This document shows positions 2,710-27,222 of a stretch of DNA of 31,475 nucleotides, piece by piece. The notes beneath the pieces were generated by a model that worked only from the letters and a program-made list of their open reading frames with translations, was not told the DNA's origin and searched no databases. The stretch is taken from NCBI RefSeq assembly GCF_030817315.1, contig NZ_JAUSZF010000005.1:1-31475 (forward strand), written 5' to 3'. The DNA comes from Sphingomonas faeni. GTDB lineage: Bacteria > Pseudomonadota > Alphaproteobacteria > Sphingomonadales > Sphingomonadaceae. Every line of letters starts with the position of its first letter. Position 1 is the stretch's first letter. A program made the translations under genes and the position numbers.

Positions 2710-5427
2710 ATGGGTGCAGCACCACAGTTTAATTTTGGGGACGCTGCCACTTTTGAACAAAATATCGCAGCATTCTCCATAGAGCTAGCGAAGCTGGATC
2801 CAGCCGCAGCACCGGTCTTATCAGCGTCGCTGAATGCACTTGCTGACGAGCAACAGGATAAGGCCGCGCTTTGGAACTCGTTATTTGCTGCCGAAGTAGC
2901 GTCGGATGCGGCCCCTTCAGATAGTGAGATTCCACTACCTTTGATCGCGCCTCCCGTAACAGCCCCGGTACGCTGGTTTCTGGAAAGATTAGAGATTGAG
3001 GGATTTCGTGGAATCAACAACGAAGGTTCACCACTATCACTAAAGTTCAAACCTGACTGCGTCGCTTCGATATCGGCACCAAACGGCGTTGGTAAAAGTT
3101 CAATATTCGACGCACTTAGCTTCGCTATTCGAGGCAAGATCGCTAAACTAGATCGTTTGCTACAGACCGAAAAACCCCAGGACTATTATCTTAACCGTTT
3201 CCATCCGGGTACGATTGGTACTGTAAAGATAACGCTTAAGCCGGACAACGGAGGGCAATCTGTTCCAATATTAGTTACTCGGGATGATAAGGGTAAGCGC
3301 ACCGTCTCAGGACCTGTCGGTGTAGACTCGCAAGCGTTGCTTGCCGAACTCGATCGAGAGTTTGTGCTCTTAGACGCCCCGTCTTTCCAGAGCTTCATAG
3401 ACGACAAGGCCCTTGACCGTGGCCGGGCTTTTTCCGGCCTTCTCGGACTCTCCCGCTACTCAGGTTTACGTCAGCAACTTCAAGCAATCAGTAACACCCG
3501 GGCCTTCAACACTCATTTTGACACCAGCGCCCACGCCGCAAAACTTGCGGCGGCCCAACGCACGGCGACAACGGCGAAAACCGCTATAAGCAACGATTAT
3601 GCCGAACTCGTCAAAGAACCACTCGTTGCAGGCACACCGTCGCCCGAAGCACAGGACCGCTGTCACGCTGCTCTCCACGGCATCCCAGTCTTAGTTGACC
3701 ACTGCGCCGAACGCCCTTTCATAAGTATCGATGTAGATGCTTGCCTAGGCGCGGTTCGCACAGCCGAGGATGGTCCCACGCGAGATCGCTTGGGCACAAT
3801 TATCCGCGAACAGACGAAATGGACCGAGGCTAACAAGGCTTTGCCAACGGAAGCGGATATGTCTCTGCTTAACTCCCTTGCGGTAGCCCGGACCGATGCA
3901 CTTACAAACACAACCGGAGATCTCTTACGTAAGCTATACCGCTTGAGCGAACAGGTCATGACCGGCGACTCCTGGCCTTCGCCTAACGTCTGCCCCACAT
4001 GTGAGAACGACGATGGAAACTCGGTTTTAGAGAACGTACGGACAAAATTGGGCCAGTACGATGCGGCTGAAACGGCTACCATCGCCGTGGCGACCGAATG
4101 GGCCTCAAAGGGCTGGGCAGAACTGACTGATCTCGAGGCACTGACGTTAACAGAAGGCGAGGCTCCACGCATACGCCAGCTCTCAAAAGCAGGGGAAACT
4201 GGCACTCTAGAAAGCACCGAAGCCCTTGAATTGGCGCAACACGTCAAACTATTGCGCGAGAGGGCAACCGTAGCAATCGACGCCCTTGCCCAGGAACGCC
4301 TGAGTCTCGAACGACAATTGCCGCAGTCGCTTGTTATTGTGACTACAGCGGTAGAAACAGCCCGCCGCCTTCAAAGCAATTGGAATGTGCTCGAAGAGGC
4401 TCAATCAGAAGAGAATATTGAGACGGATTACGCGTCCAAGGTTAAGCGGTTAAAGAAGTTTCTCGATAGTACCGCAACGATGTTTGCGGACGCAGAGTCC
4501 GATATGGCCGCGGCTCGTCTCGCGAAAATTGAGCCTCTATGTCAGGAGTTGTTTCGTTATATAATGTACAGCCCCGTTGTACCAACACTTAAAAAGCCGA
4601 AAGGTAGTGAGGATCTAAGCATCGGCCTTGCGGAGTTTTGGGGACTAAAGGATCTTTCTGCACAGGCCTTGTTGTCCGAAAGCTACCGGAACGGATTTGC
4701 CGTATCCGTATATCTAGCAGCGGCATCATTGTACGGCGGGGCTCCACGCTTCATCGTTCTTGATGATATAACTTCAAGCTTTGACGCGGGTCATCAGCAT
4801 CATCTTATAGAGGTTATCCGAACTAGGTTTTCTCGTCCCGTAACGGCAGACGGTCCTCAGGTTATTCTACTGAGCCATGACACGCTACTGGAAAAACTAT
4901 TCAACAAACATTCTAGTACGCCAGAATGGTCCCATCAGCGGATAGAAGGCACTGCGCAAACCGCAATTCTTTTACAGTCCGGTGCGGTAAATAAGGTTAG
5001 AGAAAACACGCTAGAACTCTTGCAGGTTGGACGAGTTGATGATGCTGCACCGAGAATCCGCCAGTATTTGGAATATACTCTACACACTGTAATTGATCGG
5101 TGTCGTATACCGGTCCCGCTTGATATCGCTTTTAGTGACGATAGACGTACGCCCGGCGAGTACCTTGGCGCCATTGAAACAGCCGTAAAACTGTACAAGG
5201 CAGCAGGCCTGCTTGTGCTCGATCCAGTTCAGGAGAGCGCGCTGCAAATGCATTCCGCGATGATTATCAGCAATTTCCTATCGCATTGGTCGACTGGACA
5301 GGCTCAGTCATTCTCCGCTCCAGCTCTGCTTGGCGTCATGCAAGCCATTGATGACTTCCCGGACTGTTTTAAATACGAGCCCACCCCCGGTGCTCCTAAA
5401 AAGTTTTACACTTCTCTTAGATCTTGA
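2710..5427 (+). CDS. Rad50/SMC-like ABC ATPase with zinc-hook motif
   Basis: A 905-residue protein with split ABC-ATPase halves. Walker A is APNGVGKSS (123-131). A CPTC motif at 428-431 is in the position of a Rad50 zinc hook between two helical arms. Walker B is FIVLDD (681-686), followed by the SSFD D-loop (689-692) and the H-loop LSHD (H723). About 90 residues precede the ATPase, and about 165 residues after the H-loop form an extra C-terminal domain. AGGGGGA lies about six bases before the ATG. It is coupled to the small nuclease gene downstream. Such ATPase plus nuclease pairs occur in anti-phage systems (Lamassu, Septu and Gabija are related in concept), but this pairing matches none I can name. 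DNA-end sensing or loading is an inference. Confidence 0.85.
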   Translation: MGAAPQFNFGDAATFEQNIAAFSIELAKLDPAAAPVLSASLNALADEQQDKAALWNSLFAAEVASDAAPSDSEIPLPLIAPPVTAPVRWFLERLEIEGFRGINNEGSPLSLKFKPDCVASISAPNGVGKSSIFDALSFAIRGKIAKLDRLLQTEKPQDYYLNRFHPGTIGTVKITLKPDNGGQSVPILVTRDDKGKRTVSGPVGVDSQALLAELDREFVLLDAPSFQSFIDDKALDRGRAFSGLLGLSRYSGLRQQLQAISNTRAFNTHFDTSAHAAKLAAAQRTATTAKTAISNDYAELVKEPLVAGTPSPEAQDRCHAALHGIPVLVDHCAERPFISIDVDACLGAVRTAEDGPTRDRLGTIIREQTKWTEANKALPTEADMSLLNSLAVARTDALTNTTGDLLRKLYRLSEQVMTGDSWPSPNVCPTCENDDGNSVLENVRTKLGQYDAAETATIAVATEWASKGWAELTDLEALTLTEGEAPRIRQLSKAGETGTLESTEALELAQHVKLLRERATVAIDALAQERLSLERQLPQSLVIVTTAVETARRLQSNWNVLEEAQSEENIETDYASKVKRLKKFLDSTATMFADAESDMAAARLAKIEPLCQELFRYIMYSPVVPTLKKPKGSEDLSIGLAEFWGLKDLSAQALLSESYRNGFAVSVYLAAASLYGGAPRFIVLDDITSSFDAGHQHHLIEVIRTRFSRPVTADGPQVILLSHDTLLEKLFNKHSSTPEWSHQRIEGTAQTAILLQSGAVNKVRENTLELLQVGRVDDAAPRIRQYLEYTLHTVIDRCRIPVPLDIAFSDDRRTPGEYLGAIETAVKLYKAAGLLVLDPVQESALQMHSAMIISNFLSHWSTGQAQSFSAPALLGVMQAIDDFPDCFKYEPTPGAPKKFYTSLRS

Positions 5428-5933
5428 CCCGCCCTTCTATGTCAATGACCCCATTAGAGGTGATCACTGCTAAGCGCGCCCATCTGGCAAGGTTCGCCAA
5501 TGAAGGGGGAGCTGCGGGTGAGCAACAGGCAATAGTCGCAATGGATCGCTGGATTCCTCGTCCACGCGGTCCTGATTTAGTCATGCTCCTTGAGGAGCTG
5601 GCTTCTACTGGAATCGTCATCAAGCCTTCGAGCTTTGACGCACTCGCGCTCCCCCGCCTCATTAGTATGGCAGATCGAGATCAGGTCCGAGCGAGTCTTG
5701 CCGAGATTACCTTTGTAGAAATCAAGACGTCCAACCAGCCGCGCGTAAAACCCGGCTTCAGCGGCTTCTTTTTCGCTATCACAGAGAACGAAATTACAGC
5801 GGCAGAGCAGCTCGGCATCAGGCATCGCATTGCCTTATTTAACAAGATTACTAACGAGATCTTGATTACATCGGTCTCGGAAATATTGGCCCGTACCAAA
5901 TCTATGAATTGGCAGCTCTCAGTCCAGATCTGA
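5424..5933 (+). CDS. Small DUF3883-like (NO VEIN) PD-(D/E)XK nuclease
   Basis: A protein of up to 169 residues whose C-terminal half reads as a restriction-endonuclease-like fold. VEIK (E99-I-K101) is the ExK core, D72 is a candidate upstream acidic residue, and a strand ending in ITENEITAAEQLG resembles the end of DUF3883 domains. The TTG at 5424 overlaps the ATPase TGA; ATGs at 5439 and 5445 are alternatives, and none has a clear Shine-Dalgarno, so translation is probably coupled. It is likely the nuclease effector working with the Rad50-like ATPase. The family assignment rests on motif shape alone. Confidence 0.68.
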   Translation: MTRPSMSMTPLEVITAKRAHLARFANEGGAAGEQQAIVAMDRWIPRPRGPDLVMLLEELASTGIVIKPSSFDALALPRLISMADRDQVRASLAEITFVEIKTSNQPRVKPGFSGFFFAITENEITAAEQLGIRHRIALFNKITNEILITSVSEILARTKSMNWQLSVQI

Positions 5934-6054: not shown

Positions 6055-7416
6055 CTAGCCAACTGTCTCATCGGGATGAGTAGGCGTCGTTAATGGAAAC
6101 GGGCAGAAGCGGTCCGCAACGGGACGCACCGATAGTATTTCGGTGAAGGGTGGGTCAGCGCGCGTAGCATCTGTCGGCACGAGCGTGTGCCACCAAGCGA
6201 GGAGCGCGCCACGTGCCAAATAGGCGAACGTGTGGAGAAGCATTGGCGTGTCATCACTGCTCCAGGTGGCGCCCATCGCGGAGCAGGCAAGCCCGCCCGG
6301 AATCTCGGAATAGGGCCCATCATCATAGCGCTCCGGCGGGATACACATCGGATACGGGAATGGGACACCGCCATGGAGAGCGCGCGACCGGAGCGCATAG
6401 ATACGCTTGTACGCCGCAGTCAGAGGTTCACTGGAAAAGTTAAACTTCCCGAATGTCGGACGCTTTTCTGGAGCACCGGGGGCGAACGTCTCCATGAAAC
6501 CGACAAATTTTGCAGTTGCACCCACGACACCTCTGAACGCCCTAGCACCGACAAATTTTGCAGACCTCGGCCTTGTAGAGCCGACAAATTTTGCAGTTGC
6601 ACCCACGACACCTCTGAACGCCCTAGCAACCTTAGGGACCGTGGCCCCGGCACCAGCTTTGTGTAAAAGATTGATCACACCTTGGTAGGAAAGGGCAAAT
6701 CGCTCTTCAGGCGAACGCTGATCGCCATCCCAATGGTTAGCGGCGGTCTCGATTGACGAAACGAGCAACAACCAAGCATTCTCGGGTGTGGAATCCGCGA
6801 CCCAAAGCGCATTTTGGAAAAGGCGTGCAGCTTTTATCAAGGCAGCTGCTCCATCCGGCGTTAGCAATGGCAGCGTCGCAAAATCGGCAAGGCTGCGCAG
6901 ATCGCGCATCCCGTGCAGGTGCGGAAGCTGCGGCGCCCTTTGTGAAATTGGAAGCAGTGGTAAATAGGTCGCGTCGTAACCGCGCGGTCTGCCAAGCGGA
7001 TCTTCTCCAGGCTTGAACTCGCGATCAACCGGACCGGCCATAATCCGTGCGTCGAGCAACAATGAGACGAGGGCCGCCACTTCGTCAAATATGTCTCCGC
7101 CATGATAATGATTATCGTTGGTGTGGAATGGGACGCGCATATCGGCCTTCAGCAGCCACTCGGCGCGCAGCACGATGCCAGGTTTTAGGCTACGCACGTT
7201 TGCACGTGTATGGGCTAGCGCGTTCAGGAAACTATAGGGCCCGAAATCGTAGGCCTCAGCAATGAACTCTGCGTCTGAGTAGAGCCGGAGCTCGGAGATC
7301 TGGATCGCTCCAGATTTTTCGCGATGCGCCTGCCAATTAAGCCAGCTACGCGGCGGTGGCGGGACGATCTCCCCTTTTCCTTCGTCTTCCGGCGCTATTC
7401 CCATTAAAACTTCCAT
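6055..7416 (-). CDS. Protein of unknown function, partner of the RES protein, with internal duplication
   Basis: A 453-residue protein (461 if the GTG at 7440 is used). The ATG at 7416 is preferred because GGGGGA precedes it by nine bases. I do not recognise the family. It begins 44 bp after the RES gene stop (20 bp from GTG 7440), so the two form an operon. A helical segment around ENAWLLLVSSIETAAN is faintly reminiscent of HEPN/Abi-type proteins, which is weak evidence. The middle contains a perfect 27-residue in-frame duplication (bases 6500-6628) rich in AKFVG motifs, suggesting a recently expanded linker. Possible roles are immunity factor, regulator or second effector for the RES enzyme; the sequence does not decide. 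Confidence 0.7.
   Translation of the reverse strand: MEVLMGIAPEDEGKGEIVPPPPRSWLNWQAHREKSGAIQISELRLYSDAEFIAEAYDFGPYSFLNALAHTRANVRSLKPGIVLRAEWLLKADMRVPFHTNDNHYHGGDIFDEVAALVSLLLDARIMAGPVDREFKPGEDPLGRPRGYDATYLPLLPISQRAPQLPHLHGMRDLRSLADFATLPLLTPDGAAALIKAARLFQNALWVADSTPENAWLLLVSSIETAANHWDGDQRSPEERFALSYQGVINLLHKAGAGATVPKVARAFRGVVGATAKFVGSTRPRSAKFVGARAFRGVVGATAKFVGFMETFAPGAPEKRPTFGKFNFSSEPLTAAYKRIYALRSRALHGGVPFPYPMCIPPERYDDGPYSEIPGGLACSAMGATWSSDDTPMLLHTFAYLARGALLAWWHTLVPTDATRADPPFTEILSVRPVADRFCPFPLTTPTHPDETVG
6500..6628. repeat. 81-bp-period duplication inside the 6055-7416 gene
   Basis: A 48-bp sequence at 6500-6547 recurs perfectly at 6581-6628, 81 bp later (27 codons, frame kept). Its first 16 bases, CCGACAAATTTTGCAG, also occur at 6548-6563, giving three copies of that core. 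The identity suggests a recent slippage or unequal-recombination event within the coding sequence. Confidence 0.9.
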
Positions 7417-7460
7417 TATGCAGCTTCCCCCAAATTTCACCTATCCTGCCCAAGCCGCAT

Positions 7461-8879
7461 TTAAAAACCTGGCTCGGTCCAGTCACTAAAGCGAACGGGA
7501 GTTGATTTATTATCATACTGAATTGAGTTCACCGTGATCCGCAGCACACCCTGAGGACCGAGGCGCAAGGCAGTCTCGAGAGCAGGAGCAGGTCGGTGTG
7601 CAGCCCCCAAGATGGCAGCAAAAAAGTCGTCGTCATTCTTAGCCATTCCCGGCGCTGCTGGATCCGCCTGCTCCGGTAGCTGCTTGAAAAAGACGTGGTC
7701 CTCGGGCTCCTCATCCTCATCTTCAGGATCTCGTAAACTGCTGTAAGATACGAACTCGATGCCGCGCTTGGCCTCTTGTTCTACCCCTTCCACCAGCGAC
7801 GCATGAGGAAACAAAACCAGATTATTTCGGCCATTCGAAATTTGTGCCGACTCGAAGATGATCCCGTCGAGCACCGGATCGGCTTCCGACCAGAGATATT
7901 CAGCGACGACTTGCGTCGGAAGATAGTCAAGATTCTCTCGGCCAGGGATTACGGCTCGGCGGACCTCTTGGTGGAAGCCTCGCATAAAACCGCCGTAGCT
8001 TCGCCGTTGAATATAGTTCTGCGAGAAATAGCTCAGATCTTCATAGGCAAGGTCAAGCATCGTCAGGTCAAGGACGCGCAGTGGTCGGACAATCTCGAAG
8101 CGGCCGACAATTGCGCCCCCGCCCACAGGAGTACGCAATTCCGCGACACACGTGTCTTGATCAAGCGCTCCGTAAAACAAACCTATACCGGCGGCGTTCA
8201 TTCGCCCCGCGCCTGCCAATCCAGGTTCGGGGGCGGCAAGCTGCTTTAGCCGGTTCCCGAAAATCGTCTTTTGTTGCGCCTCATCGTTCGCTTTACGGCC
8301 GCGAAAAACATGCGTGATGTCACTGTTCGGCCCAATCGTTCGGATCACGCCATTTGGCGGCCACTCGCCTCGCACGATCGGTCCAAGCAGCTCGTCGAGA
8401 ACCTTTTTGCCTTCTTGTAGAAAGAACCGGCGGCGATGTTTCAATTGATCGCAGAATCGATCCCAGCTTTCATGTAAATCGCTGCCTGTCGGCTCCCGGA
8501 TTGCGAAATCGTCCGACGTCTCATCATAGACATCAATCTCGCCCTCCTGGAAATTGAAGTCATGCCGCTGCGAAAGGATCGCGGCCAATCGCTGACCCAC
8601 AATGTCGTCGTCAACCTGTAGCATGTTGATCAGGATTTGGCTTGGATGGTCCCCTACCGGACCGAAGGTAACCTCTCCGTTGCGGATCCTGACGTCCTCA
8701 TCTGCGATGCCAACCAAATTCAGATAGATTGGATCAATGCGATCAGCGAGTGCTTCGAGCGAAAAGGTTTTCGTACGCCGCCGATTGCAAACCATGCACA
8801 TGTGCCGTGAGCCGCCCGCTGCGATCTCAGCGCTGACGATCGGATCACCGACACAATCCTTACACACATGGTCCGGCAT
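7461..8879 (-). CDS. RES-domain protein with zinc-binding and HEPN/RES-type N-terminus
   Basis: A 472-residue protein. Two CxxC pairs (C6/C9 and C28/C31) suggest an N-terminal zinc ribbon. A helical region to about residue 180 resembles the HEPN/RES N-terminal domain. The RES domain spans about 188-375 and keeps the expected catalytic set: R193 (HVFRG), Y236 (GIGLFYGA) and E247 (CVAEL). RES enzymes are ADP-ribosyltransferase-related and several degrade NAD+ as toxin-antitoxin toxins. The start is ATG 8879 with GGGGGAG about six bases upstream. No Xre/MbcA-type antitoxin is adjacent; the only co-transcribed gene is the unknown protein at 6055-7416. It diverges from the NACHT gene across a ~150-bp gap. 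NAD+ depletion on infection is an attractive but untested role. Confidence 0.85.
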   Translation of the reverse strand: MPDHVCKDCVGDPIVSAEIAAGGSRHMCMVCNRRRTKTFSLEALADRIDPIYLNLVGIADEDVRIRNGEVTFGPVGDHPSQILINMLQVDDDIVGQRLAAILSQRHDFNFQEGEIDVYDETSDDFAIREPTGSDLHESWDRFCDQLKHRRRFFLQEGKKVLDELLGPIVRGEWPPNGVIRTIGPNSDITHVFRGRKANDEAQQKTIFGNRLKQLAAPEPGLAGAGRMNAAGIGLFYGALDQDTCVAELRTPVGGGAIVGRFEIVRPLRVLDLTMLDLAYEDLSYFSQNYIQRRSYGGFMRGFHQEVRRAVIPGRENLDYLPTQVVAEYLWSEADPVLDGIIFESAQISNGRNNLVLFPHASLVEGVEQEAKRGIEFVSYSSLRDPEDEDEEPEDHVFFKQLPEQADPAAPGMAKNDDDFFAAILGAAHRPAPALETALRLGPQGVLRITVNSIQYDNKSTPVRFSDWTEPGF

Positions 8880-9029
8880 TCAGCTCCCCCTTCAATGATT
8901 TAGCCGATTTTCTTTATGGAAACGGCTCTTGGAGCGTGGCTCCCTCCAGCCTTACAACGAAAGTGATCTCAGTCGATTTAGTTATTGAATGGCTTGGATA
9001 GACGTACGGAAATCTGCAAGTTGCGCTGC
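8880..9029. promoter_or_regulatory. Divergent intergenic region between RES and NACHT operons
   Basis: About 150 bp separate the two divergent operons and must hold both promoters. Only the RES ribosome-binding site (GGGGGAG beside 8880) is clear. The stretch around 8970-8990 is AT-richer. I see no convincing -35/-10 pair or operator. Confidence 0.4.
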
Positions 9030-12000
9030 ATGAGCAAGCCCCTTCTCCGTCGTCAACTTTGGTATGTCGATCTTCGCAGCCGCCAAATCGTCGGTCAGGA
9101 ATTTCTAAAAACCGAAAATCGGTCGCTTGTTGTCCTCGGCGAGGCAGGTATGGGTAAATCCACCCTACTGTCGCAACTCCAGGATGTTGATGGCTACGCG
9201 CTGTGCAGTGCACGCAAGCTCATCATCATGCCCGATCCGAAGCTACTGATTGGCGATGCCACTACCTTGGTCATCGACGCTCTCGACGAAGTTTCGGCTC
9301 AGCGCGAGGGTGATGCCGTAGACCTCGTACTGCGCCGTCTCGCAGAACTCGGCTTACCTCGCTTTATCCTCTCGTGCCGAGTCACCGACTGGCGCAGCGC
9401 AACCGCCCTCCAAGGCATCGCCGACATCTATGATCATGCGCCGCTCGAGCTGCATCTTGACCCATTAGACCGAGATAATGCGATTGAATATCTGGCGCAT
9501 TCGATCGGCAACGAGGTGGCCGAAAAGGCAATCGTGCACCTTGAAGCTCGGGGGCTGAGCGGCCTGTGGCGCAATCCGCAGACTTTGGAACTCGTCGCAA
9601 AGGTGGCAGCGCAAGGATGGCTCCCTGACTCAAAGGGACAGCTTTTTGCGGATGCGATCAAGCTGTTACGCATTGAACATCGCAATGAGAAGTCCGCTAC
9701 TCCGTTGGCAACATTGCCCGAAAAAGACGTGCTCGAAGCTGCTGGCGCTGGCTTCGCGACCCTTATTTTTGCTGGCAAGGAAGCTCTTTCCCGAGAGACC
9801 CCGCCCGCTAATTTCGACGCACCACTTGCCGAAGCTTCAGCGTTGCCGGCCGCGGCGCGGTTAAGCGATGTGCTCGATTCCCGACTTTTCGAGGCGCGGG
9901 CGCCCGATCGGTTTACCTATGCGCATCGAGCAATTGGTGAATTTCTTGGCGCGCGTTGGCTGGCCGAACAGGCTGACACGCCGCGCAAACAACGACGAGT
10001 ACTCGAGTTGCTCAACAATCACTCGTTGGTCCCTGCAAACTTACGTGGCATTCATGCTTGGCTTGCTTGGCATTCGCCGACCCTAGCCGACAGGATCATC
10101 ACGTCGGATCCTATGGGTGTCATCGAATATGGCGATGCGGACACCCTCACAGCACCGCAGGGTCGCGCCTTGCTGCTTGCGCTGTTCGAGCTTTCGAAGG
10201 AGAATCCACGGTTCCGGGACTGGTCGGACTACCGAGCAGGTGGCCTAGTACAGCCGGGGATGCTCGCCGAGATCCGAGACGTCGTGCGTGATGCGAACGT
10301 GGAATTCGGGCTTCGCCTACTTGTCCTCCAGGCCCTCAAGGGCTCCGACCTTGCCCCGCTGTTAAATAACGAATTACTGACTCTGCTTCTTGATGGAGAT
10401 TCAATCTTCGCGCTCAGAAGCGAAGCCGGTGATAGGCTAGTTGAGATTCAGGGCGCGATCGATTGGCCTCTGATCGTCCGTAAGCTCATCAATGAGGCGG
10501 GAGAAAACAGCGTCCGCCTTGCCAGCGAGCTGATGAGTGAGCTTGGCTATGCGCAATTTGACAATGCGCTCGTCCTTGACATGATCCGCGCAAATTTCGT
10601 CCGGGTGGACAGCACGGTTGGCGTGTTCTTCGGTCTGGAGCGAAAATTCCCCATCGACCGACTAGCTCCCCTCCTTGACGGCGTCGTCGCGTTCGCGGAC
10701 TCGCTAGGTGATCGGAACGAGCGTCGGAGCAATGACGCGATCACGGATCTTGCCTTCGCGCTGCTCGCGAGGCGGTTGGAAGGTCCATCCCCCGACGCAA
10801 AGCAGCTCTGGTCATGGCTACGTCCTTTCGACGCTAGCCTTGGGTCACAGCGCGAGACGCGCCAAGCCATTTCTAAAGCGTTCGCGGCAAACGATGACCT
10901 TCGCCACTCAGTCCAGCGCCATGTGCTGCTGGATCTGAAAGACGATAAAAACCTTTGGCAGCGCTCCTGGCGGATGCTCGTGCCTGCGTCCGGTCTTAGA
11001 CCAGACGAGGACGATTTGCTCTGGCTCTTAGACCAGATCGAGCTCGGCGATCCGCGCTGGCGTGAGCTTGTCGAACTGTCTGGGCACGGCCCCGAGCAGG
11101 GCACGAAGGTCAGGGCCGCAGCGGAACGGTTCGCCGCTGGCGACGACGAAGCCAACGCGTGGCTTGCCGAACTTGCCGTCCCACAGACGCCGGACTGGCA
11201 AATTGAGCAAGAGCAGCGGGAGCGCGAGCAGACCGCCGAGCGGATAGCCAATTGGGAACGCCACCGAGCAGAATTCGGTGCTCACATCGACGCGATGCGC
11301 GCCGGCGATTATGGAAACATAGTCAACCCCGCGAAAGCCTACCTAAAACTCTTTTTCGACATGGGTGATGCGGCCAAGGATGGCCCAGCGCGCATTGAGG
11401 AGTGGCTTGGCCCCGAGCTGAAGGACGCTGCTTTGGCAGGGTTCGAGGCTTTCCTCACGCAACAGCCGCCAACACCGTCGGCAACTGAAATCGCGATAAG
11501 CCATGCTGAAGGCCGACGGTGGGAAGCCGCCTATATCATCGTTGCTGCGCTTGCCGAACGTATGCGCACCGTTCGGGGATTTGATGACCTCACCGACGAG
11601 CGCCTGATGGCAGGATACATCGAACTTTCCCAAAGCCGGATCGATGACCATGCCGGTATCGGCGACCTCGATAAGCAGCTTTCTCGAGAATTACGTTTCC
11701 GGGATCAATGGGAATCAACGCTCCGGCTTTTCTTCGAGCCGCAGTTCGCCGCGAGCCTTAAGCATGTCAGCGGACTGTACGGCTTTCTACGAAGCGAAGA
11801 AGATGCGGCATTGGCGGACCGGCTGGGGGCCGAGTGGCTAGCGAGATTCCCTCAAATGTCGGAGAACGCGGAAATCGAGCTCATCGATCATCTTTTAACG
11901 AACCACGCCGGTTCAGAGGCTATCCTTGCACTTCTACCTCAACATCTCGCCGAGCCGCTCTCCGACCAGCGACGCCTTACATGGGACGCGGTCGGGATTA

Positions 12001-12971
12001 TCCTAGCTTTTGATACGACGCGCGCTCGACTGGACTTGGCCGGCCCGGTCGGTAAGGAACTATTCTGGAACTTACGTGCCCGACTAGGCCACCGCAGCAG
12101 GACACCTTCGATCACCTCGTTGGGTGTTGATCAACTCGCTTGGGCAATTGAAACTTTCCGACCAATATTCCCTTATGCCCACCGACCGACCGGTGGCACG
12201 ACGGGAGATACCAACAACTGGGATGCGACCGAATACCTCGTGGTATTAATCAATCGGCTTGGTAGTGAAACTGGGCCAAATGCAACCGCTGCTCTGCTCG
12301 CGCTGCGCGATGCGCCGAAGGATGGCTACACTGAACATCTGCGGATCGCGTTGGCGGAGCAAAAGCGTAAAAGAGTCGAGGCGGATTGGGTCGCCCCCGA
12401 CATTGCGACCTTCGCCTCTGCCGTCACCGACCGGGCGCCCACTACCGCACCGCAGCTTCAGGCGGTGATACTTGAAGAACTTAAGCAGGTGCAGGCAAAG
12501 GTTACCGGCGACCCGCGTGACTGGTACAAAGACTTTTTTCTCGAGAATGGCACGCCCAAGGGCGAAGAAGATTGCCGAGACACAATCTTGAAAATGTTTG
12601 GAGACCTTCCGTTCGGGATCCAAGCCGCACCAGAAGGCCATCTCGCGGATGACAAGAGGTGCGACATCGAGTGCACACTTCCCGGAATCATGGTGCCAAT
12701 CGAGATCAAGGGTCAGTGGCATAAAGACCTATGGACCGCGGCGGACAGACAGCTTGACCTTCTCTATACGAACGACTGGCGCGCAGAACGCGGAATTTAT
12801 CTCGTCCTGTGGTTCGGCCTAACAACTGGGAAAAAACCCAAAAAGTCTCCTTTTGACATCGGTACACCTGAAACTGCTGGGCAATTGCGGAATGCTCTAG
12901 CTATTCAGAGTGTGACAACGCGCGAAGGACGGACAGAGATTGTTGTTCTGGACCTGACGCGTCCGACATGA
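9030..12971 (+). CDS. NACHT/STAND NTPase with C-terminal PD-(D/E)XK nuclease domain
   Basis: About 1313 residues from ATG 9030; TTG codons at 8985, 8994 and 9021 are alternatives and no start has a strong Shine-Dalgarno. The N-terminus carries a NACHT domain: Walker A GEAGMGKS (about 37-44), Walker B IDALDE (about 82-87), sensor-like ILSCRVTDW, and a winged-helix-like FTYAHRAIGEFLGARW segment. A long helical middle, probably a repeat sensor, follows. The C-terminus has CDIE then PIEIKGQWH (EIK about 1225-1227) and a following Q, which is the PD-(D/E)XK layout. STAND/Avs proteins sense phage proteins and activate nucleases. Here the nuclease is at the C-terminus, the reverse of most Avs proteins. 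It overlaps the next gene by ATGA at 12968. Confidence 0.82.
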   Translation: MSKPLLRRQLWYVDLRSRQIVGQEFLKTENRSLVVLGEAGMGKSTLLSQLQDVDGYALCSARKLIIMPDPKLLIGDATTLVIDALDEVSAQREGDAVDLVLRRLAELGLPRFILSCRVTDWRSATALQGIADIYDHAPLELHLDPLDRDNAIEYLAHSIGNEVAEKAIVHLEARGLSGLWRNPQTLELVAKVAAQGWLPDSKGQLFADAIKLLRIEHRNEKSATPLATLPEKDVLEAAGAGFATLIFAGKEALSRETPPANFDAPLAEASALPAAARLSDVLDSRLFEARAPDRFTYAHRAIGEFLGARWLAEQADTPRKQRRVLELLNNHSLVPANLRGIHAWLAWHSPTLADRIITSDPMGVIEYGDADTLTAPQGRALLLALFELSKENPRFRDWSDYRAGGLVQPGMLAEIRDVVRDANVEFGLRLLVLQALKGSDLAPLLNNELLTLLLDGDSIFALRSEAGDRLVEIQGAIDWPLIVRKLINEAGENSVRLASELMSELGYAQFDNALVLDMIRANFVRVDSTVGVFFGLERKFPIDRLAPLLDGVVAFADSLGDRNERRSNDAITDLAFALLARRLEGPSPDAKQLWSWLRPFDASLGSQRETRQAISKAFAANDDLRHSVQRHVLLDLKDDKNLWQRSWRMLVPASGLRPDEDDLLWLLDQIELGDPRWRELVELSGHGPEQGTKVRAAAERFAAGDDEANAWLAELAVPQTPDWQIEQEQREREQTAERIANWERHRAEFGAHIDAMRAGDYGNIVNPAKAYLKLFFDMGDAAKDGPARIEEWLGPELKDAALAGFEAFLTQQPPTPSATEIAISHAEGRRWEAAYIIVAALAERMRTVRGFDDLTDERLMAGYIELSQSRIDDHAGIGDLDKQLSRELRFRDQWESTLRLFFEPQFAASLKHVSGLYGFLRSEEDAALADRLGAEWLARFPQMSENAEIELIDHLLTNHAGSEAILALLPQHLAEPLSDQRRLTWDAVGIILAFDTTRARLDLAGPVGKELFWNLRARLGHRSRTPSITSLGVDQLAWAIETFRPIFPYAHRPTGGTTGDTNNWDATEYLVVLINRLGSETGPNATAALLALRDAPKDGYTEHLRIALAEQKRKRVEADWVAPDIATFASAVTDRAPTTAPQLQAVILEELKQVQAKVTGDPRDWYKDFFLENGTPKGEEDCRDTILKMFGDLPFGIQAAPEGHLADDKRCDIECTLPGIMVPIEIKGQWHKDLWTAADRQLDLLYTNDWRAERGIYLVLWFGLTTGKKPKKSPFDIGTPETAGQLRNALAIQSVTTREGRTEIVVLDLTRPT

Positions 12972-14182
12972 TGCGACGCGAGTCTGCCTTTATCCAGCTC
13001 GACGCCGCGGTTGAGCGGAGCGACGTTACGATCTTGAGAGGACTGCCGCGCGTCGGTCGTTCCTCGTTTTTAGAAGATTGGAAAAATCGGCGTGCCGACG
13101 CGATGCGCTGCCTAGTGGAAGACGTTAGACTCGAGGCAGGCATTTTTATTCTCGATCATGTTGATGCTCGAGCGATCGACCAGATCATTGGTATTGTTCG
13201 TACGGCCGAGGATACGAAATCTCGCACTCGCTTGGTCGTAGCTCCCAGCGATCTTGTCACCGCCGAGCGACTACGCACGACGTTACCTGGTGTTGTTGGT
13301 TCAGTTGAGATTGCCCCGCTCCGTATAGAGGAGCTTGCCATCGAGATCGGGCAGCAGCAATTGGCAGCTGGTCCTGTTGAGGCGGCACCGCTTACTGCAA
13401 TCCCTGCGCCCGCCCAGGCTGCGGACCCCAACCGTCATTGGCTGCGGGGCGGCTTTCCCGGCAGCCTGCTGGCCCATGACGACCAAGATAGCTTGATATG
13501 GCGTCGTGGCATGCTCGATGGGCTTTTAGCGCGAGACTATACGGAGTGGGGAGTCGAGCGTGCCTTTCCTATGGGTGACATGTTTCGTTGGCTCGCAAAC
13601 CAAAATAGCGCGGAACTCAACGAGAACAGTTGCGGGTTCGCGAAACGGCAGGAATTAAAATCCGCCGTCTATGTGCTGGAACTCCTTGGCCTCGTTCGGC
13701 GCTTGCCCAACTACCCGGCTGGCAGCAGCGCCAGCATGGACCGGAATCAAAAACTTTTCGTCCGGGACACCGGCCTTCTCCACGCCTCGCTTGGTATCGA
13801 GACATCAACTCAGCTTCGAGCGAACCAAGCTATTGGGGGAAGTTTTGAAAGCTACGCAACGGAAGCGCTGATCCTTGCTGCGGGAGGACGGTGCGGTGCC
13901 CAATTCTACCGAGAACTGGGAGACAACGGTGAGGACGAGATCGATCTGATCCTAGACTTCCCTTCTCAGAAAGGCCGCCTTGTTGCGATCGAGTTTAAGG
14001 TCGGGCCCAACCAGAAGGCCAAAAGGGGCTTCTACAATGGCTGCGCGGCGCTCAACATCGAGGATCGCTTCGTTGTTCACTCTGGCGACGCAGCAGATCT
14101 TGGTGAAGCGGTGCACCGCCTCGATTTGAAATCCGCAGTCGCGCGCATCGCCGGTAAGCGCGGTCTGAGGGCCGCCTTGTAG
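12968..14182 (+). CDS. AAA_14/DUF4143-like protein with degenerate ATPase motifs; 3' end altered by IS66
   Basis: A 404-residue protein with an AAA_14-like N-terminus and a DUF4143-like C-terminus (FVRDTGLLHASLGI, then DEID with D326 and IEFK with E342/K344, a nuclease-type core). The P-loop reads GLPRVGRSS, with arginine where the invariant lysine (K) should be (R31). The Walker B strand ends LDHVD instead of LDEIQ. ATP hydrolysis is therefore doubtful while the nuclease-like residues remain. Translation is coupled to the NACHT gene (ATGA overlap). The last nine codons and the stop come from the IS66 end. Before insertion the gene ended six codons past the target site, at a TAA now at 16697-16699, giving 401 residues. 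Function is probably little changed. Confidence 0.78.
   Translation: MMRRESAFIQLDAAVERSDVTILRGLPRVGRSSFLEDWKNRRADAMRCLVEDVRLEAGIFILDHVDARAIDQIIGIVRTAEDTKSRTRLVVAPSDLVTAERLRTTLPGVVGSVEIAPLRIEELAIEIGQQQLAAGPVEAAPLTAIPAPAQAADPNRHWLRGGFPGSLLAHDDQDSLIWRRGMLDGLLARDYTEWGVERAFPMGDMFRWLANQNSAELNENSCGFAKRQELKSAVYVLELLGLVRRLPNYPAGSSASMDRNQKLFVRDTGLLHASLGIETSTQLRANQAIGGSFESYATEALILAAGGRCGAQFYRELGDNGEDEIDLILDFPSQKGRLVAIEFKVGPNQKAKRGFYNGCAALNIEDRFVVHSGDAADLGEAVHRLDLKSAVARIAGKRGLRAAL
14146..14153. repeat. IS66 target-site duplication, left copy
   Basis: CATCGCCG directly abuts the left end of the insertion sequence and is repeated at 16672-16679. Eight bases is the usual IS66-family duplication length. It lies within the DUF4143-like coding sequence. 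Confidence 0.95.
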
Positions 14183-26106: not shown

Positions 26107-27222
26107 ATGATCGACCAAGTGCCTTCTGAATATTACATCGATGAGAGCGGCAATACCGGCGACCTCAGCACCGTCAAAATCGAAAACTATTTCACCGAAC
26201 AGCGCATATTCGCTTTAGCGGCGGTTGGCGGAAAGCTTGATAATACGCTCATTGAACAATTTGAAACACTCAAACTGGCTCACCGGCTTCAAGGGCAGGA
26301 GGTAAAGTCCAGACAGGCCTATGACAGGCCGCGGTTCCTCCTCGATCTGCTCGACTTGCTGGAAACGCGCAGCTGCCCAATATTCATTGAGATTGTCGAC
26401 AAACACTATTTTGTAGTAGCGAACATCATAGAACGGATGGTGGTCCCCTATGTCGCCGAGTGCGACATCACGCCGGACGCTCTCTGGATGAAAGGCCTAA
26501 TGGCAGATTATATGGCGCTCTACGCGCCACCCAGTCTCACGCACGCCTTCGCCGCTTGCTGCCAGAGTAGGGATTATATTGAAATACGCGACCTCTATAA
26601 GCGCATCATTGCCTGGGCAGAGGGAAAGCAGGCACCGTCGGAAATTGCTGAAGGTATCGCCCGCTTCACGCGAGATAGCCTGAAGGACTTTCGCAAGCTG
26701 ACCAAGCTTAAGGCCGTCGAGCGGGCGCTGCCGGTTCCCGACGCAAACCCCGCTGGAAAGCTCTTATGGGTACTTCCCAACATGACATCATTCACGCATA
26801 TTTATGCGCGGATCAACCGCTACGCGCACAAACAGATTTCCGGCGTAACACTGTTTCACGATGAACAACTACAGTTTGGGGATATTCTTCAGTACGCAAA
26901 GTCACAGACCGAAAGGTCTGCAGAGTTTGGTCTGAAACTTCCTCTAAAGGCAGCTGACTTTAACTTTTCTCAGGCAGCCGAACTACGATTCCTACAGTCA
27001 CACGACTCGATTGGCATTCAGATCGCCGACGTCATGGCTGGGTTTATCGCGCGCTACATCCAGGATGCGGTATGGGGTGGCGCTGCCATGCATGCTGACA
27101 AGGTCACCATTTTCGACCGTCTCGTATCGATGGGAGATCGAAGGCGCGGCACAGGAGTCAATTTTGTAGCGCCAGACAGTCTGGTCCGCCATCTCGGTAT
27201 CGTGCCACAGGCGAACTACTAA
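26107..27222 (+). CDS. DUF3800-domain protein
   Basis: A 371-residue protein of the DUF3800 family, which has an RNase H-like fold and uncertain biochemistry. The family motifs are in order: YYIDESGNTG (D12/E13), GQEVKS (ExK-like), LFHDEQ, and SIGIQIADVMAG (D308). These acidic residues could bind metal, so nuclease activity is plausible. It stands alone on the plus strand and converges on a second DUF3800 gene. DUF3800 genes are frequent in mobile and defence regions. Confidence 0.83.
   Translation: MIDQVPSEYYIDESGNTGDLSTVKIENYFTEQRIFALAAVGGKLDNTLIEQFETLKLAHRLQGQEVKSRQAYDRPRFLLDLLDLLETRSCPIFIEIVDKHYFVVANIIERMVVPYVAECDITPDALWMKGLMADYMALYAPPSLTHAFAACCQSRDYIEIRDLYKRIIAWAEGKQAPSEIAEGIARFTRDSLKDFRKLTKLKAVERALPVPDANPAGKLLWVLPNMTSFTHIYARINRYAHKQISGVTLFHDEQLQFGDILQYAKSQTERSAEFGLKLPLKAADFNFSQAAELRFLQSHDSIGIQIADVMAGFIARYIQDAVWGGAAMHADKVTIFDRLVSMGDRRRGTGVNFVAPDSLVRHLGIVPQANY

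Follow-up and report, generated by a model that had tools for sequence, protein, structure and literature searches.

A predicted EruA-type NACHT gene and its DUF4143 neighbour recur as a two-gene unit beside unrelated cargo on a Sphingomonas faeni plasmid contig

Introduction

EruA is catalogued in NCBIfam (NF058535) as a NACHT domain-containing antiphage protein, and the entry consists of one protein. The NACHT protein studied here matches this model over its full length and above the curated cut-off; it differs from the entry in that its operon also encodes a DUF4143 protein. No paper on antiphage EruA, and none joining DUF4143 to NACHT, was found in the literature searched, outside which preprints and most subscription papers lie; within it, a paper on Thermus Argonaute, judged by its title, joins DUF4143 to defence. 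As far as searched, the sensor EruA is thus already known, while the DUF4143 partner is undescribed. The partner shares its DUF4143 domain (3.6e-17) with AAA_14-DUF4143 ATPases and matches the PADLOC candidate PDC-S01 at 2.4e-27. Unlike AAA_14-DUF4143 ATPases, it has no AAA_14 match, its P-loop lysine is replaced by arginine and its Walker B motif is changed from DE to DH. HyoA (NF058534) is another related model, which the NACHT protein matches in part (116 bits, best stretch residues 140–760), far under the HyoA cut-off of 1200.

The second operon of the locus encodes a RES protein and a HEPN-like protein. RES domains phosphorolyse NAD+, according to the available part of the source (PMC9503650), and an architecture of RES with HEPN/RES-NTD1 and a Zn ribbon was published in Biology Direct in 2013 (PMC3710099); compared with the accessible portion of that paper, our RES protein has the same architecture, with no difference noticed. 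RES-Xre toxin–antitoxin modules, as far as the partly available source describes them, include a helix-turn-helix antitoxin gene, whereas neither gene adjacent to this RES gene matches one. ApeA/Apea-like HEPN proteins share an Rx4H motif with the HEPN-like protein, one relative of which (P0095) is named 'Apea-like HEPN domain-containing' in its source; unlike them, the family of the HEPN-like protein has no Pfam match (19 members, E <= 0.1) and no convincing fold match.

Setting and gene layout

The DNA analysed (the window) spans all 31,475 bp of contig C5, one of the five contigs that make up a 4.37-Mb genome. Genes for RPA replication, ParA, MobA/MobL and a TraG/TrwB-type protein lie on it; by this gene content the contig is a plasmid, and the four genes of Table 1 are its cargo. 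No exact overlap of 15–200 bp was found between the contig ends. The GC3 of the four genes (0.58–0.61) lies below that of the IS66, TraG and Mob genes (0.76–0.79), with RPA and ParA in between (0.65–0.66). The description in the earlier note of four intact genes in two tight operons around a divergent gap of about 150 bp was accurate: all ORFs are intact, and because the database starts the NACHT protein at ATG 9030, giving 1313 aa, the gap measures 150 bp. No sigma-70-like site was found in this gap (8880–9029). The HEPN-like ORF (6055–7440, minus strand) can start at a GTG, giving 461 aa, or at the ATG at 7416 that the database uses, giving 453 aa, so that its distance from the RES ORF is 20 bp or 44 bp, respectively. 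On the other side, the DUF4143 start codon overlaps the NACHT-gene stop as ATGA.

Table 1. Position and character of the four genes and the gap between the operons
Feature	Coordinates	Strand	Basis and remarks
HEPN-like protein, 453 aa, Rx4H	6055..7416	-	Alignment of 19 sequences; independent neighbour
RES protein, 472 aa, N-terminal CxxC...CxxC and HEPN_RES_NTD1	7461..8879	-	PF08808 5e-19, PF18870 5e-8; independent neighbour
Divergent gap between operons, 150 bp	8880..9029	.	Database start of NACHT protein
Predicted EruA-type NACHT/STAND NTPase, 1313 aa: N-terminal NTPase, long middle, C-terminal PD-(D/E)XK	9030..12971	+	NCBIfam NF058535
DUF4143 partner, 404 aa, degenerate AAA and nuclease signature E...EID...IEFK	12968..14182	+	PF13635 3.6e-17

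Other genes of the plasmid deserve mention in their own right. At 2710–5933 lies a gene for a RecF/SMC-like ATPase of 905 aa (PADLOC LmuB-like 2.5e-20, mad3-like 8e-15), overlapping a 169-aa ORF that has no Pfam match; the two are possibly another two-gene defence unit. An Eco57I-type methyltransferase gene adjoins a serine resolvase gene with a stop/start overlap at 451–2492. A DUF3800 protein (4.9e-12) is encoded at 26107–27222, distant from the four genes, with a GC3 of 0.60 that resembles theirs.

Independence of the two operons

The earlier note had proposed that all four genes form one co-regulated system combining DNA cleavage with NAD+ depletion in a single response. The short divergent gap and the similar GC3 across the four genes speak for this proposal, but the operons lie side by side in no other genome or locus examined, and each gene type follows its own scattered distribution. 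Of 202 EruA relatives found in genome contigs, 80 loci were kept, with flanks of up to 10 kb per side (less at contig ends), and neither a RES nor a HEPN-like gene was found in the fetched flanks of any of them (0/80). Across 397 genomes of the host family, the window's included (samples of the same size and agreeing in their listed members were treated as one set), the HEPN-like gene was detected in 3, RES in 12 and EruA in 14, at E-value limits of 1e-3 for the HEPN-like protein and 1e-15 for RES and EruA. Besides the window, two of these genomes held two of the genes together, each time on different contigs: HEPN-like and RES in G790 (C22 and C32), and RES and EruA in G681 (C19 and C3). No genome among the 397 other than the window's had both HEPN-like and EruA genes. 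At the level of the class, 3 of 385 genomes have the HEPN-like gene (one match at E 9.7e-4), and within the genus 3 of 295, its own included. Eight named-plasmid regions around HEPN-like, RES or EruA relatives contained none of the other operon's genes. The two operons thus occur independently in the genomes and loci examined, the outcome that the earlier note had set as refuting its proposal; the four genes are neighbouring plasmid cargo and not one defence system, and we give a joint response almost no credence. The cleavage half of the proposed response fits the antiphage family EruA.

RES and HEPN-like genes

The RES protein scored 69.3 bits against PF08808 (cut-off 23.2) and 33.8 bits against PF18870, HEPN_RES_NTD1 (cut-off 27.4); with both domains above the Pfam cut-offs, its earlier assignment as a RES-type protein appears sound. 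Five aligned RES proteins have R, Y, E and S positions in common, which we take to be the catalytic ones. Among 72,556 plasmid records, 733 carry matches to the protein; Klebsiella accounts for 461 of these, and just 4 have a match covering at least 80% of the protein in one place.

The product of the adjoining gene had been described as an unknown of 453 residues. The length holds from the ATG start, and the protein carries a HEPN-like Rx4H motif. An RSxxLHxG sequence (R343, S344, L347, H348, G350) is invariant in 19 aligned sequences and fits Rx4-6H, given as the signature of HEPN RNases in the available part of PMC3710099. Neither the protein nor its 18 aligned relatives gave a Pfam match at E <= 0.1, and a fold search with its model returned no convincing match. 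The window gene contains an 81-bp (27-residue) in-frame insert derived from a 47-bp repeat, absent in the 18 aligned relatives; the model has low confidence where the insert lies. A relative from a Polymorphobacter megasporae plasmid (L007, 8001–9188) is spread over more than one reading frame; part of it carries the annotation 'hypothetical protein', and the remainder overlaps an opposite-strand 'HNH endonuclease'. Further relatives (H71, H73–H75) lie on actinobacterial plasmids of Kocuria, Arthrobacter and Streptomyces; for so rare a gene, this is a broad distribution.

The two genes could form a two-toxin unit of their own that targets NAD+ and RNA. They share a strand across a gap of 20 to 44 bp, and the accessible text of PMC3710099 places both kinds of domain in conflict systems. 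However, no HEPN-like gene was found within about 1.5 kb of the RES relatives at any of 13 loci, nor any RES relative (E <= 0.1) in the fetched flanks of HEPN-like relatives at 7 loci, one of them at a contig end (H71, H73–H75 and two viral relatives lie outside this sample). The pairing is not conserved in the loci examined, and a dedicated unit appears very unlikely.

The EruA-type NACHT protein

Against the NCBIfam EruA model, the NACHT protein scored 1249.2 bits (cut-off 1000) over profile positions 1–1317 of 1318, which identifies it, by this model, as a predicted EruA-type antiphage protein. Its match to Pfam NACHT is weak (E about 7e-4, under the Pfam cut-off). The motifs are intact, with Walker A reading GEAGMGKST and Walker B VIDALDE, and G42, K43, S44, D83, D86 and E87 are invariant in a NACHT alignment of 15 sequences. 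A C-terminal PD-(D/E)XK domain at about residues 1179–1308 is predicted from a modelled restriction-endonuclease fold, a fold match and invariant residues; its use as an EruA criterion is our own, the NCBIfam title naming NACHT alone. The reading of this gene as a NACHT NTPase with a C-terminal nuclease is supported, its Walker motifs being plain and its nuclease part modelled. The expectation of an undescribed system fared differently in its two parts: the NACHT-nuclease belongs to the named EruA family, but no description of its DUF4143 partner was found in the literature searched.

A recurring pair of EruA-type and DUF4143 genes

DUF4143 neighbours were sought with a profile grown from the window partner over the ORFs around the EruA relatives. 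Of the 80 loci, 18 have a DUF4143 gene directly next to the EruA-type gene and in the same orientation, downstream in 6 (76 loci with room) and upstream in 12 (74 loci with room); the flank is shorter than 300 bp downstream in 4/80 loci and upstream in 6/80. Two loci, L079 and L081, encode identical proteins, leaving 17 of the 18 pairs distinct. The longest possible EruA ORF of L093 extends through the partner, so adjacency there was taken from where the match begins, and overlap lengths of upstream partners in general hinge on longest-ORF starts. No abutting DUF4143 gene was found in 62 of the 80 loci, and the partner is thus dispensable for the family as a whole; one flank is too short for a partner in 10 of the 80, and one of these 10 has a partner on its other flank. 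The downstream arrangement also occurs in L002, a Paracoccus plasmid, and in L139–L143, from five other host-family genomes; counting the window, 6 of the 14 host-family genomes that match EruA carry the partner.

Clustering of the tight same-strand neighbours from 78 loci placed 16 in the DUF4143 group and at most 2 in any other, making DUF4143 the sole recurrent tight neighbour of EruA-type genes in the loci clustered. In the 1.35 Mb of flank around the 80 loci, 18 of 21 DUF4143 ORFs abut EruA, a proportion to be read with the profile in mind, which was built from abutting copies and may undercount distant DUF4143 genes. With equal contig size as a proxy for location on one contig, at least 34 of 75 partner-family proteins have a longest contig exactly as long as that of an EruA relative (n = 119). 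Among the 52 whose contig reaches 5.4 kb, the number is again at least 34; since the comparison drew on the best 120 of 284 relatives of EruA, these counts are probably lower bounds. The same comparison gave 0/97 for the HEPN-like family and 0/22 for the remaining partner-search hits (P0298 among the 22). For 35 pairs (34 by equal-sized contig and the window pair), EruA and partner distances correlated at r = 0.891, a value reached by none of 2000 permutations, and the partner diverges faster than EruA (mean distance 0.53 versus 0.43). The co-divergence shows joint inheritance, as expected from linkage, and does not imply physical contact. The right-hand operon is a real, recurring two-gene unit of EruA and its DUF4143 partner.

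Sequence and family of the DUF4143 partner

The P-loop of the partner reads GLPRVGRSS, with lysine changed to arginine, its Walker B DE has become DH (LDHV), and Pfam AAA_14 gives no match at E up to 0.1. Together with its DUF4143 match, this bears out the earlier assignment as a DUF4143-like protein that has lost its P-loop lysine. Its family was delimited as 76 sequences (P0004, P0223–P0297) against an outgroup of 21 (P0299–P0319), with a border set by hand from the search ranking; the P-loop count excludes P0298, a fusion or chimaera involving another enzyme. Arginine replaces the lysine in 70/70 family members having the region (6/76 are without it); in the outgroup of 21 DUF4143 proteins, the region is present in 20, of which 19 carry K and 1 carries R. 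The motif GLPRVGR[ST] is itself conserved in the family, Walker B is mostly DH, and the nuclease ExK is kept in 74/74 members having that region, in a family extending to 31% identity with the window protein. In this alignment, the arginine is a fixed trait of the window partner's family, and a predicted pseudo-ATPase with a nuclease signature is thus a conserved EruA companion in Alphaproteobacteria; a mechanism is proposed below.

These patterns bear on three other explanations of the partner. It could act as a brake that binds EruA and holds the nuclease off until infection, in the manner of an antitoxin. The ATGA overlap, the joint inheritance with EruA and the loss of the partner's own P-loop lysine would all suit such a role, as would a side branch (see below) that kept the gene despite loss of ExK; but 62/80 EruA-type loci do without an abutting partner, and a pure brake would need no ExK, so we consider this unlikely. 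Alternatively, the partner could be a bait or sensor in which the altered P-loop resembles a target from phage or host, binding of which triggers EruA. Conservation of the rewritten motif means that it may do something besides ATP hydrolysis, but baits would be expected to evolve fast and GLPRVGR[ST] does not, which leaves the bait quite unlikely. Finally, the partner might be a decaying hitch-hiker from an old ATPase gene. Its faster divergence points this way, as does a graded loss from an intact through an arginine P-loop to a truncated AAA domain; a fixed single substitution is not expected of decay, however, and the invariant arginine and ExK in a family this divergent make decay highly improbable.

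Two partner arrangements

The EruA tree comprises 86 rows from 95 candidates after removal of 7 fragments or duplicates and 2 short ORFs, and leaves out five more fetched family loci (three duplicates and two with interrupted ORFs). Upstream- and downstream-partner states fall in separate halves of this quick tree, which has 14 weak forks and in which rows without room for a partner were scored 'none'. The DUF4143 tree likewise splits the two partner kinds, and three DUF4143 genes that are not adjacent to EruA fall on the side of the upstream kind. The trees suggest two captures of DUF4143 by EruA-type sensors, provisionally because the partner tree has long branches. When seven further EruA-type proteins were tested against the NCBIfam EruA model, six exceeded the cut-off; two of the seven represent the upstream-partner branch, L065 passing (1113) and L094 failing (915). 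By this model, both partner arrangements go with EruA-type proteins.

Upstream partners keep GPRQxGKT/S and DE, and with an intact P-loop in this branch, loss of the ATPase is not general among partners. Among downstream partners, the P-loop is intact in L142 and L143, partly changed in L140 and of the arginine form in the window, L002, L015, L017, L023, L032 and L034. The downstream partners of L047, L139 and L141 are short (275–290 aa) and have neither the AAA domain nor the ExK lysine; this side branch argues, by its sequences, against nuclease activity as the conserved function. Pfam AAA_14 matched L094 (3e-20), L143 (1e-15) and L140 (5e-9) and gave no match for L015, L047 and L139. In L142 (5554–12142), an EruA-type gene has DUF4143 genes on both sides, both with intact P-loops and both nearer the downstream kind on the tree.

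Proposed mechanism

Our preferred reading, with a probability of roughly 0.6, is that EruA would be a sensor-nuclease made together with a DUF4143 auxiliary nuclease or positioning subunit, with unrelated plasmid cargo alongside. From STAND/NLR biology, the basis for the sensing and oligomerisation steps, we infer that the long middle region of EruA would sense a phage product, that its NACHT domain would bind ATP and oligomerise, and that oligomerisation would bring the C-terminal PD-(D/E)XK domains together, cutting DNA and stopping the infection. The partner is probably co-made with EruA through translational coupling and would most likely dock on it as an auxiliary nuclease or nuclease-positioning subunit. 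It may descend from an ordinary AAA_14-DUF4143 ATPase. In association with EruA, the partner would have had no need of its own ATP switch, and the P-loop lysine could have become a fixed arginine and the Walker B glutamate been lost, while the nuclease signature would have stayed as the ATP site changed. In the side branch of L047, L139 and L141, the partner is probably structural or regulatory.

Taken further, alphaproteobacterial EruA would form an NLR-like system of two components, the second a nuclease with a purpose-made, arginine-type pseudo-P-loop. EruA-type sensors would have taken up DUF4143 ATPases on at least two occasions, and in one lineage the partner would have lost its own ATP switch and come under EruA control. 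We hold this wider proposal tentatively, at slightly less than even odds.

Implications

A conserved partner with a start–stop overlap and a rewritten P-loop would show an NLR-like sensor recruiting and controlling a second enzyme. DUF4143, still a 'domain of unknown function', would gain a testable role. The recurring pair also cautions against assaying EruA of these lineages without its partner.
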